DNA of 64,000 nt from Paenirhodobacter ferrireducens (GTDB lineage: Bacteria > Pseudomonadota > Alphaproteobacteria > Rhodobacterales > Rhodobacteraceae), in NCBI RefSeq assembly GCF_004022265.1, contig NZ_SAVB01000006.1:1-64000 (forward strand), in the 5' to 3' direction. The notes below the pieces were generated by a model. That model was not told the origin of the DNA and did no database searches. It worked only from the letters and a program-made list of their open reading frames with translations. The position numbers and the translations under genes are program-made. The stretch's first letter is position 1. Each line of letters starts with the position of its first letter. Positions 29,478-35,968 of this stretch are shown here, piece by piece.

Positions 29478-29506
29478 GTGATCACACCATTCGGGAGCGT
29501 GATCAC
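29478..29506. promoter_or_regulatory. Paired GTGATCAC palindromes upstream of sucC
   Basis: GTGATCAC occurs at 29478-29485 and 29499-29506, 21 bases start to start. Flanks are TTT on the outer left and AAA on the outer right. The pair lies between divergent sucC and the glycosyltransferase gene (ATG 29590). The same pair with the same 21-base spacing lies upstream of sdhC. Confidence 0.7.
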
Positions 29507-29589
29507 AAATGCTGCGGGGCAGCATGAGGCTTGCCCGGGACGAAGGAATCGGAAAGACTCCGGCGGGTTTCTTGAGGGGTGGAGAGGTC

Positions 29590-30636
29590 ATGGACAGATG
29601 GGGCGTGGTGGCACTGGCGGACGAGCCGGCGGCGTTGATTGCGGCTTTCGTCGCCCATCATCTCGACCTCGGCGCCGACGAGGTCCATGTCTGCCTCGAC
29701 CGCCCCAATCCCGAAGCGCGCGACCTGCTGGCAGGGGTGCCGGGGGCGGTGCTGCATGACGCGGGCGACGACGGCTGGGCGTTTTCGAACGGCTACCGCC
29801 CGGCCAAGCATCTGGGCCGGCAGAAGTATCACGCCAGCCGGATGCTGGCCGAGACGAAGCTCGACTGGCTGGTGCATTGCGACGCCGACGAATTCGTGCT
29901 GCCCACGGCGGGCGAGAGTGTGGCCGAGGTGCTGAGCGCTGTCCGTCACGGCGCGAGTTGGGTGAAGATCGCTGTCGCCGAGCGCACCCATCTCGACGAT
30001 CTGCCGGCGGCCGACATCTTTTCGGGCGTCTTTCGCCGGCCCTGGGCGGGCTTCAATGCCCGCGGCGGCGTGATCTATGACGACGCCGCTCTGGCGCTGC
30101 TGAACAAGGGGCTGTGCGGGCACAACCTCGGCAAATGCGCGGTGCGGTCGGGGCGGGGGCTGTTCATCGGCGTGCACCGGCCGATGCGCGAGTGGAGCGG
30201 TGGCGGGCGCGATGTGTCCTATGACGGCACGGCCAAGCTCGAGCTTCTGCATTACGACGGGCTGACCGAGCTGCATTACGCGCTGAAGATGATGCGCCGT
30301 GCGCTGAATGCGATGGCGAAGAACCCGCCTTCGCACGCGCCACAGCGGCAGTTGCAGTTCGAGGCGATGGCGGGCGCGGCGCATAATGCGCGCGCGCTGC
30401 ATGCGCAGTGGCTGGCGGCGAAGGTGATCGACGCGAAACAGGCGCGCGTGCTCGAACGCGAAGGCGTGCTCGCCCGCTTCGATCCGCAGATTGCGGCACG
30501 CACGGCGCGGGTGGTCGGCGCGGTCGACCTGACCCCCGCGGGCTTTGACCGCGCGCTCCTTGCGCATGAGGCGGCGCTGTTCGCGCGGGCGGCGCAGACG
30601 TTCGGCTTCGATCCCGCCCCCCTCGTCGCCGCCTGA
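29590..30636 (+). CDS. Family 2-type glycosyltransferase
   Basis: The 348-residue protein has a GT-A-like beginning (WGVVALADEPAALIAAFVAHH, with LGADEVHVCLDRP) and an HCDADEFVL motif at about residues 96-104 that supplies the DxD metal site. The C-terminal part is helical and basic. No signal or membrane segment is visible, so it is cytosolic. Donor and acceptor are unknown. It diverges from sucC across the GTGATCAC region and ends at a shared terminator with mdh, so it may be regulated with the TCA genes without being part of them. GGAGAGG lies just before ATG 29590. Confidence 0.75.
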   Translation: MDRWGVVALADEPAALIAAFVAHHLDLGADEVHVCLDRPNPEARDLLAGVPGAVLHDAGDDGWAFSNGYRPAKHLGRQKYHASRMLAETKLDWLVHCDADEFVLPTAGESVAEVLSAVRHGASWVKIAVAERTHLDDLPAADIFSGVFRRPWAGFNARGGVIYDDAALALLNKGLCGHNLGKCAVRSGRGLFIGVHRPMREWSGGGRDVSYDGTAKLELLHYDGLTELHYALKMMRRALNAMAKNPPSHAPQRQLQFEAMAGAAHNARALHAQWLAAKVIDAKQARVLEREGVLARFDPQIAARTARVVGAVDLTPAGFDRALLAHEAALFARAAQTFGFDPAPLVAA

Positions 30637-30644
30637 GCGCAACG

Positions 30645-30673
30645 AAAAAGGCGCGGCCGAAGCCGCGCCTTTC
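30645..30673. terminator. Bidirectional terminator between glycosyltransferase and mdh
   Basis: GGCGCGGC (30650-30657) pairs with GCCGCGCC (30662-30669), with an A-run (30645-30649) on one side and TTT on the other. Confidence 0.85.
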
Positions 30674-30695
30674 CCGAGAGACAATCCTTGCCGGA

Positions 30696-31658
30696 TCAGG
30701 CGAGGGTCGGGTCGATGCCCTTGCAGGCCGCGACGAGGCCCTTCACCGCGTCGACCGACTTGTCGAACATCACCTGCTCGTCCTTGTTCAGCTTGATGTC
30801 GACGACCTTCTCGATGCCGCCGGCACCGATGATCGTCGGCACGCCGACATACATGCCGTCGAGGCCGAAGGCGCCCTTGACGTAGGCGGCGCAGGGCAGC
30901 AGGCGCTTCTGGTCCTTGAGATAGGCTTCCGCCATCTCGATCGCCGAGGTGGCCGGCGCGTAGAAGGCCGAGCCGGTCTTCAGCAGGCCGACGATCTCGG
31001 CGCCGCCGTCACGGGTGCGCTGGATGATCGCGTCGAGCTTTTCCTGGGTGGTCCAGCCCATCTCGATCAGGTCCGGCAGCGGGATGCCGGCAACGGTCGA
31101 GTAGCGGGCGAGCGGCACCATGGTGTCGCCGTGGCCGCCCAGAACGAAGGCGGTGACGTCCTTCATCGAGACGTTGAACTCGACCGAGAGGAAGTGACGG
31201 AAGCGCGCCGAGTCGAGCACGCCGGCCATGCCGACGACCTTCTCCGCCGGCAGGCCCGAGAACTGCTGCAGCGCCCAGACCATCGCGTCGAGCGGGTTGG
31301 TGATGCAGATCACGAACGCGTTCGGAGCATGTTTGCCGATGCCTTCGCCGACCGACTTCATCACCTTGAGGTTGATGCCGAGCAGGTCGTCACGCGACAT
31401 GCCGGGCTTGCGCGGCACGCCGGCGGTCACGATGCAGACGTCGGCGCCGGCGATGTCGGCGTAATCGGTGGTGCCCTTCAGCGTGGCGTCGAAGCCTTCG
31501 GAGGGGCCGGATTCGGCGATGTCGAGCGCCTTGCCCTGGGGCGTGCCTTCGGCGATGTCGAACAGGACGACGTCACCGAGTTCTTTGATCGCGGCGAGAT
31601 GGGCGAGCGTGCCGCCGATCTGGCCGGCGCCGATGAGGGCGATCTTGGGTCGGGCCAT
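30696..31658 (-). CDS. mdh: Malate dehydrogenase
   Basis: The 320-residue LDH-like malate dehydrogenase starts [19 protein letters not shown], has [27 protein letters not shown] and the catalytic [12 protein letters not shown]. It oxidises malate with NAD+. Start 31658 (ATG-GCC) gives the conserved N-terminus; the frame stays open upstream without homology. It has its own promoter region of 263 bases shared with mcl2, so it is not co-transcribed with sucCD. Confidence 0.97.
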
Positions 31659-34596: not shown

Positions 34597-34610
34597 TCCG
34601 AAAGGAAAAC

Positions 34611-34642
34611 GCCCGGGCACCTTCGTGGGCTCCGGGCTTTTT
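34611..34642 (+). terminator. Terminator after mch
   Basis: GCCCGG (34611-34616) pairs with CCGGGC (34632-34637), an inner CAC/GTG pairing extends the stem, and TTTTT follows (34638-34642). Confidence 0.75.
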
Positions 34643-34693
34643 CTCGGCCCAAATACTCAAATTCCGCGTGCAACGCGGGCACGACGGCGGGGC

Positions 34694-35818
34694 TCAGGCG
34701 CCGCCGTTGTCCTTCAGCCAGGCCGCGATCAGCGGCCATTCCTCGGCGAGCGTCCGGCTGCCCATGAAAAGCCCGATATGCCCGCCCGGCACCAGCTTCT
34801 TGGTGATCTTCTCCTTCGGCGTGCCAAGAAGATCGCGCGCCGCAAAGACCTGTTCCTTGGTGGTGATGTCGTCCGAGGCGCCCGCCAACAGATAGGCGGG
34901 GCAGGTGATGTCCTTCAGCTGCAGCTTTTGCCCAAGCCCGCGGAACGCCCCCTTGGCGAAGAGGTTCTTCTTGAACAACAGGTCGATCGCCTGGAGGTAA
35001 TAGCGCCCGGGCAGGTCGACGGGGTTCTCGTACCAGCGCTCGAAGGTCTCGGTGCGCTTGATATAGTTGCGGTCGTCGAGATGGGCGTAAAGATCGAGGT
35101 ACTTCTCCACGAACTGCTTGTCGGGGTGCATGTTCTTCCAGCCCGCCAGCATGTTCGTCCCCATCATCCGGCCGCCACCCGCGGTGACAAACTCTTCATA
35201 GAAGGACAGCGGCAGCCGATGCGCCATCGCCCGGATCGGCCCGTGCCCGGCGTCGGTGTCGATCGGCGCGCCGGCAAGCACCAGTGCGGCGACCTTCTCG
35301 GGGAAGCGCGCGGCGAACATCGCGCTCATCCAGCCGCCCTGGCACAGGCCGACAAGGATCACCCGGCCCCCAAGGTCGTCGACCACGACATTGAGCTCGG
35401 CCAGATACTTGTCGATGTCGAAATCGCGCATCTCCTCGGTGGCGGTCTTCCAGTCCGTCACCAGCACCCGGCCGATGCCGTTCGCCAGCAGCGTGGCGGC
35501 AAGGCTCTGCCCCGGGGCGAAATCGGCGATGGTCGCGTTGTGGCCGGCAAAGGGGGCGTCGACCAGCACCGGCACCCCCGTCGCGCCCTCGGCCGAGAAG
35601 TCGCGCAGCCGCATCGTATCGAGATCGAGCCGCACCCGGTTCTTCGTCGCCCAGCCGGGCTGCGGCGGGTGGTCGATCTTCTCGGCAAGGTCAACGAATT
35701 TCAGGTTCCGGCGAAAGGCGTCGAGCCCCGCCTCGCCCAGTTCGATCCCCGCTGCCATCGGCCAGAAGAAGGGAACGGAATGTTCATGCACGGGGGTCTT
35801 GGTCGCGGTTTCGGTCAT
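34694..35818 (-). CDS. PhaC-like alpha/beta hydrolase with Cys nucleophile
   Basis: The 374-residue protein has a lipase-like box VGLCQGGW with Cys159 in place of Ser, as in polyhydroxyalkanoate synthases and some intracellular depolymerases. It also has VTDWKTATEEMRDFDIDKYLAEL, an Asp in LAGASDDITT and the His in PGGHIGLFMGSR, completing a Cys-Asp-His triad. No signal peptide. Length is closer to class III PhaC (about 350 residues) than class I (about 600). It could synthesise or mobilise polyhydroxybutyrate, or be a paralogue. GGAG lies 7 bases before ATG 35818. It diverges from sdhC across the paired GTGATCAC region. Confidence 0.7.
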   Translation of the reverse strand: MTETATKTPVHEHSVPFFWPMAAGIELGEAGLDAFRRNLKFVDLAEKIDHPPQPGWATKNRVRLDLDTMRLRDFSAEGATGVPVLVDAPFAGHNATIADFAPGQSLAATLLANGIGRVLVTDWKTATEEMRDFDIDKYLAELNVVVDDLGGRVILVGLCQGGWMSAMFAARFPEKVAALVLAGAPIDTDAGHGPIRAMAHRLPLSFYEEFVTAGGGRMMGTNMLAGWKNMHPDKQFVEKYLDLYAHLDDRNYIKRTETFERWYENPVDLPGRYYLQAIDLLFKKNLFAKGAFRGLGQKLQLKDITCPAYLLAGASDDITTKEQVFAARDLLGTPKEKITKKLVPGGHIGLFMGSRTLAEEWPLIAAWLKDNGGA

Positions 35819-35939
35819 CGCCGGCTCCTTTCGGGCAAGTGCGTTTCCGGCCTGGAATGCTGGGCGCAACACGCTGCGGTTGCAAGGGGCGGGGCCGCAT
35901 TCCGTGCCGTCGCTCGCTGAGTCGTGTGAGCGCAATCAC

Positions 35940-35968
35940 GTGATCACGCGCTGAAAATTTGTGATCAC
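35940..35968. promoter_or_regulatory. Paired GTGATCAC palindromes in the sdhC / PhaC-like spacer
   Basis: GTGATCAC occurs at 35940-35947 and 35961-35968, again 21 bases start to start, exactly as upstream of sucC. The first copy extends to CGTGATCACG. The surrounding gene-free stretch 35819-36138 (320 bases) also has a T7 run after the second site. It must hold promoters for both sdhC and the PhaC-like gene; I cannot place them with confidence. Confidence 0.7.

Follow-up and report, generated by a model that had tools for sequence, protein, structure and literature searches.

The AkgR regulon of Rhodobacter sphaeroides, reportedly described by Imam, Noguera and Donohue (mBio, 2015), is the described system closest to one found in a 64,000-nucleotide stretch of Paenirhodobacter ferrireducens DNA (contig NZ_SAVB01000006.1, positions 1 to 64,000; hereafter the window), in which pairs of the 8-bp palindrome GTGATCAC precede the suc and sdh operons of the tricarboxylic acid (TCA) cycle and a single copy precedes a gene encoding a GntR-family regulator. 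The R. sphaeroides GntR protein RSP_0981 is reportedly AkgR. Control of sucCD, sdh and the 2-oxoglutarate dehydrogenase genes by RSP_0981 is predicted in a passage of PMC4344238, where CceR and NtrC are also assigned to sdh; passages of PMC11323563 place TCA genes within the CceR regulon in R. sphaeroides and outside it in Paracoccus denitrificans. The passages of PMC6365646 on these regulators list GTGATCAC among AkgR binding sites, term AkgR an activator, and state that a PS417_07240-type GntR regulator of Pseudomonas simiae is 32% identical to AkgR. The system in the window most likely represents the AkgR regulon of a further family member, and the pairs are very probably double operators from which the regulator encoded at 18540–19187 (probably AkgR) activates suc and sdh.

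As in the AkgR regulon, the regulator in the window (215 aa, plus strand) has GntR (PF00392) and FCD (PF07729) domains, both above the Pfam cut-offs; the palindrome given for AkgR in the PMC6365646 passages is present at the targets and conserved in the family; and the pairs stand before sucC, at the head of a sucCDAB-lpd run of genes, and before sdhC, matching the targets predicted for RSP_0981 in PMC4344238. The placement of GTGATCAC before the regulator's own gene is shared, by description, with the PS417_07240-type regulator, which, unlike the system in the window, serves a deoxyribose catabolism cluster and not TCA operons according to the passages of PMC6365646. CceR likewise acts on central carbon metabolism, being assigned to sdh and mdh in passages of PMC4344238 and PMC11323563, but it belongs to the LacI family and has a different motif. 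A scan for that motif, [AGT]GTT-N6-8-AAC[ACT], in the promoter stretches of suc, sdh, mdh and the GntR gene in the window gave no match, which speaks against membership of a CceR regulon. The regulon being already known, the new part is the double operator and its phasing across the family, as far as the published passages show: neither a two-site layout, nor a spacer of 12–13 bp, nor helical phasing was found in passages of papers other than the primary one on AkgR.

The window contains six exact copies of GTGATCAC (at 14517, 18523, 29478, 29499, 35940 and 35961), with 0.84 expected; shuffled sequences contained at most four, and six or more were reached in 0 of 100 shuffles. Four of the copies make up two GTGATCAC-N13-GTGATCAC pairs, each with 21 bp from site to site and a 13-bp spacer, the two spacers differing in sequence. 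The suc pair, consisting of a promoter-proximal site (29478–29485) and a distal site (29499–29506), is located 111–139 bp ahead of the sucC start codon (ATG at 29367, minus strand). The sdh pair, with its distal site at 35940–35947 and its promoter-proximal site at 35961–35968, is located 171–199 bp ahead of the sdhC start codon (ATG at 36139), in the stretch that separates this gene from a divergent one. All of these sites are exact matches, listed without strand, and both pairs are kept before the corresponding genes in relatives. The single site at 18523–18530, probably autoregulatory, is followed by the ATG of the GntR gene, which begins 9 bp past its end, and the copy at 14517 is inside a long open frame (13536–14603). 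Coordinate search confirmed exactly what the initial annotation had reported of these positions, namely the identical 21-bp layout before sucCDAB-lpd and sdhCDAB, the one site in the GntR promoter and a single further copy within a gene.

A lone copy of the palindrome means little, since 63 copies are present in the whole genome (4,066,781 bases) and about 53 are obtained by scaling up the mean of the window shuffles; the single palindrome was rejected as a regulon marker because its number is near chance. The genome-wide search for GTGATCAC-N13-GTGATCAC that had been proposed found the pair at suc and sdh only, and exact pairs with any spacer of 5 to 30 bp were confined to the same two loci. 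With up to three mismatches allowed, 87 genomic matches were obtained (two exact, one with one mismatch, five with two and the remainder with three), so that degenerate pairs are to be regarded as background. The longer form TTGTGATCAC occurs four times genome-wide, at both suc sites, at one of the sdh sites and at a position within a long open frame (C26, L270).

The exact N13 pair was found in 249 of 295 genomes of the family, mostly twice per genome, and the reversed control gave 0 in every row. Eighty-three pairs were examined, comprising 75 among the matches listed for family genomes, six from a search of the class and the two of the window. Their spacers are 13 bp long in 80 cases and 12 bp in three, and the gene behind the pair is sucC (41), sdhC (40), sucA (1) or fumC (1). 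The proposal of a defined TCA regulon motif is upheld by these counts, 82 of the 83 pairs standing before sucC, sdhC or sucA and the other before fumC; the many unrelated intergenic copies that the initial annotation had named as contrary evidence were not observed for the pair. Within the N13 set, the pair ends 96–150 bp before sucC and 107–191 bp before sdhC; the sequence of the spacer drifts, and the flanks favour T ahead of the palindromes and A behind them. A chance occurrence, or some general element related to GATC and tied to no regulon, would suit the near-chance number of the single 8-mer genome-wide, but is hardly credible for a pair that persists as the sequence of its spacer drifts, that precedes TCA genes, and that is lost together with one regulator gene, as described below.

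Some genomes depart from the arrangement of one pair per operon. Three sites in series precede sucC in G135, G191 and G285, with both spacers 13 bp long and steps of 21 bp (L258, L260, L265; sites 1501, 1522 and 1543). Genome G042 has a third exact pair (L127:1501–1529) about 125 bp before fumC, so fumarase appears to belong to the regulon in at least one lineage. The third pair of G276 (L263:1501–1529), adjacent to which no match to the suc, sdh, mdh, mch or GntR proteins of the window or to fumC was found, may be due to chance. The search of the class found a GTGATCAC pair with a spacer of 0–30 bp in 21 of 289 genomes; at the one locus inspected per genome, suc or sdh adjoined the pair only in four genomes, all of the window's own family. 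In two other families the pair was observed beside a different GntR gene (L137:992–1020 and L153:1501–1532), and the palindrome may thus be an operator common to related regulators.

Presence of the GntR gene was defined as a match at E 1e-40 or better, by which 270 of the 295 family genomes have it, many of them with two GntR matches; five of the 25 genomes without it were identified by elimination. Orthologues were obtained from named members of the family, and that of Sinirhodobacter hankyongi BO-81 (L026) is 100% identical to the protein of the window. In 68 of 80 named GntR loci an exact GTGATCAC is located 16–66 bp before the start of the match. The GntR gene and the exact N13 pair are both present in 244 genomes and both missing from 20, with 26 genomes having only the gene and five only the pair (Fisher p 3.5e-14, a value that ignores kinship). 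Among the 26 genomes with only the gene, 15 of 17 readable sucC upstream regions do carry a pair, either exact with a 12-bp spacer (13) or with a 13-bp spacer and one mismatch (2). When either operon is considered and at most one mismatch allowed, 17 of the 26 carry a pair, two lack it at both operons and seven can be assessed only in part.

The 25 genomes without the GntR gene have no pair of fewer than three mismatches in 18 of 23 readable sucC upstream regions and in 16 of 20 readable sdh upstream regions. Two of these 16 (L280 and L284) have a pair with three mismatches; one of them beats 25 shuffles, and that of L284 is at the usual distance. A possible remnant of the pair in G157, also without GntR, is in the usual place and scores no better than shuffles. 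The sucC comparison excluded relatives of about 52% identity (L174–L179, L203–L209) and L171, which has no upstream DNA; the sdh comparison excluded L293, L295, L298 and L307 for short upstream DNA. On a midpoint-rooted tree of the single gene sucC (56 rows, support values unused), the presence of the pair changes 11 times, whereas 300 label shuffles never gave fewer than 12 changes and averaged 16.8; the losses of the pair look scattered on this tree, and several separate ones are likely, their number not being firmly counted. The GntR gene and the pair have largely been lost together. Taken together, the own-gene site and the joint presence and loss with the pair point to the 18540 protein as regulator of the pair, and sequence comparison thus supports the link between motif and protein that had been suggested.

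A second GntR/FCD protein, recognized by Pfam, is encoded at 44954–45727 (minus strand), behind what read as genes for membrane subunits of ATP synthase. Occupation of the pair by another regulator, such as this protein, CceR or a paralogue, would be in keeping with the GntR genes of other families beside GTGATCAC pairs (L137, L153), by which the operator is not restricted to a single protein, and with the two GntR matches of many family genomes. It is nevertheless very unlikely, since it is the GntR gene at 18540 that has a site before it and is lost with the pair, while an exact search of the 64-kb window found no GTGATCAC near the second GntR gene, and the CceR motif of PMC4344238, as given there in the relevant passage, was missing from the four promoter stretches scanned.

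The position of the pair relative to promoter elements was compared at the sdh loci. In the window, a -35-like GTGACT (36027–36032, plus strand) begins 58 bp after the sdh pair, and a -10-like TATTCA (36049–36054, plus strand) stands 16 bp beyond it. The element GTGAC[AT] is present in 34 of 40 loci of a first set and in all 12 further loci, usually with a -10-like element 16 bp past it. The distance from the pair to GTGAC[AT] is 57–60 bp in 36 of these 46 loci, and in the other ten it is 48–49, 69–70 or 78–80 bp. For these ten distances the mean phase cosine at a period of 10.5 bp is 0.90, a value that none of 300,000 uniform draws reached; the fit is nearly as good at periods of 10 and 11 bp. 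The rule emerged from the first set (48, 69, 78, 79 and 80 bp) and was then repeated in the second (69, 70, 70, 49 and 48 bp), where two of the distances adjoin pairs with two mismatches. Dropped from the count were stray elements in L240 (15 bp) and L305 (129 bp), together with L274 and L296, already part of the first set. At suc, column alignment revealed conserved T columns 47–49 bp after the pair, about one turn closer than at sdh, and TTAAC-like and TATAGC elements begin at 48 bp in some loci; a generic sigma-70 scan of suc promoters gave scattered positions, 48 bp being that of 7 promoters out of 41.

Activation from one fixed helical face accounts better than repression for an upstream position that shifts in whole turns. 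Repression of suc and sdh by the same GntR protein at the same sites would agree with the position of the own-gene site and with the frequent role of GntR proteins as repressors; it is unlikely given that the sdh pair, upstream of a conserved -35-like element, is separated from it by distances shifting in whole turns, and that AkgR is termed an activator in the passages of PMC6365646.

Several observations weigh against activation of both operons by an AkgR-like regulator. No clear -35 and -10 elements were seen in the organism's own suc promoter, and 12 of the 80 GntR loci are without an exact own-gene site. The genomes with only the GntR gene have 19 readable sdh upstream regions, of which four carry an exact pair with a 12-bp spacer, four a pair with one mismatch, two a pair with two mismatches and nine none; the sdh pair is thus more readily lost than its suc counterpart, which is missing from two of 17 sucC upstream regions in these genomes. 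Those two belong to G054 and G281, where the pair is absent at both operons despite the presence of GntR; both have weaker GntR matches, and G033 has a similarly weak match yet retains the sucC pair. Conversely, an exact pair is present despite no GntR match at both operons in G096, G114, G256 and G264 and at suc in G019, all of them drafts of at least 50 contigs, one of which is nonetheless rated 100% complete. The likeness to AkgR is one of family, targets and motif, and AkgR would not be the sole regulator of sdh, because CceR and NtrC are also assigned there in R. sphaeroides.

With these points weighed, double operators for activation by the 18540 protein remain the preferred account. Upstream of the suc and sdh promoters, two dimers would occupy the two palindromes, which are separated by 21 bp or two helical turns, with both dimers on a single face of the DNA; bound there, the regulator would activate both operons. 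The centre of the proximal site would be about 90–100 bp before the transcription start, judged by the -35-like elements at about 48 bp (suc) and about 58 bp (sdh) in relatives. At the regulator's own gene, the lone site immediately ahead of the ATG is consistent with autorepression. For this organism we infer binding by the 18540 protein, activation, autorepression and the transcription starts. Cooperative binding is plausible, and reasonable to suppose since dimers spaced by 20–21 bp lie on the same side of the helix.

The genes of the suc operon are all on the minus strand: sucC (28174–29367; NCBIfam PRK00696) comes first, followed by sucD (27282–28169), sucA, for the E1 component of 2-oxoglutarate dehydrogenase (23409–26378; PRK09404), sucB (21873–23405) and lpd (19893–21281). 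Those of sdh are on the plus strand: sdhC (36139–36534; TIGR02970), sdhD (36545–36943; TIGR02968, just above cut-off), sdhA (36960–38768; TIGR01816) and sdhB (39417–40208; PRK05950). All of the NCBIfam assignments are above cut-off, and sucD, sucB and lpd were read from translation alone; mdh was also identified in the window by NCBIfam. Small frames on the minus strand within the suc operon, in the gaps between sucD and sucA (26432–27197) and between sucB and lpd (21328–21876), have translations that read as lipoproteins. The gene divergent from sdhC (34697–35818, minus strand) resembles polyhydroxyalkanoate synthase/depolymerase genes, with matches below the NCBIfam cut-offs, and because of its orientation the sdh pair is here in a shared intergenic stretch. 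In many relatives this neighbour is an mch-like gene.

The comparison adds a rule to the regulon: a double operator with a 12–13 bp spacer and a helical phase at sdh that are kept across the family, and sites that vanish with the regulator. That control by AkgR needs an obligate array of two dimers, with operators 20–21 bp apart, phase-locked to the -35 element and sliding by whole turns (about 48, 59, 69 and 79 bp), is a proposal for which the case is evenly balanced. If true, the array would be a face-of-helix activator complex from a family better known for repressors, and would include a third operator in series in some lineages and the recruitment of fumC in at least one. Because the layout and phase rule are kept and the sites go with the regulator, the system would offer a clean model for transcription activation by GntR proteins.

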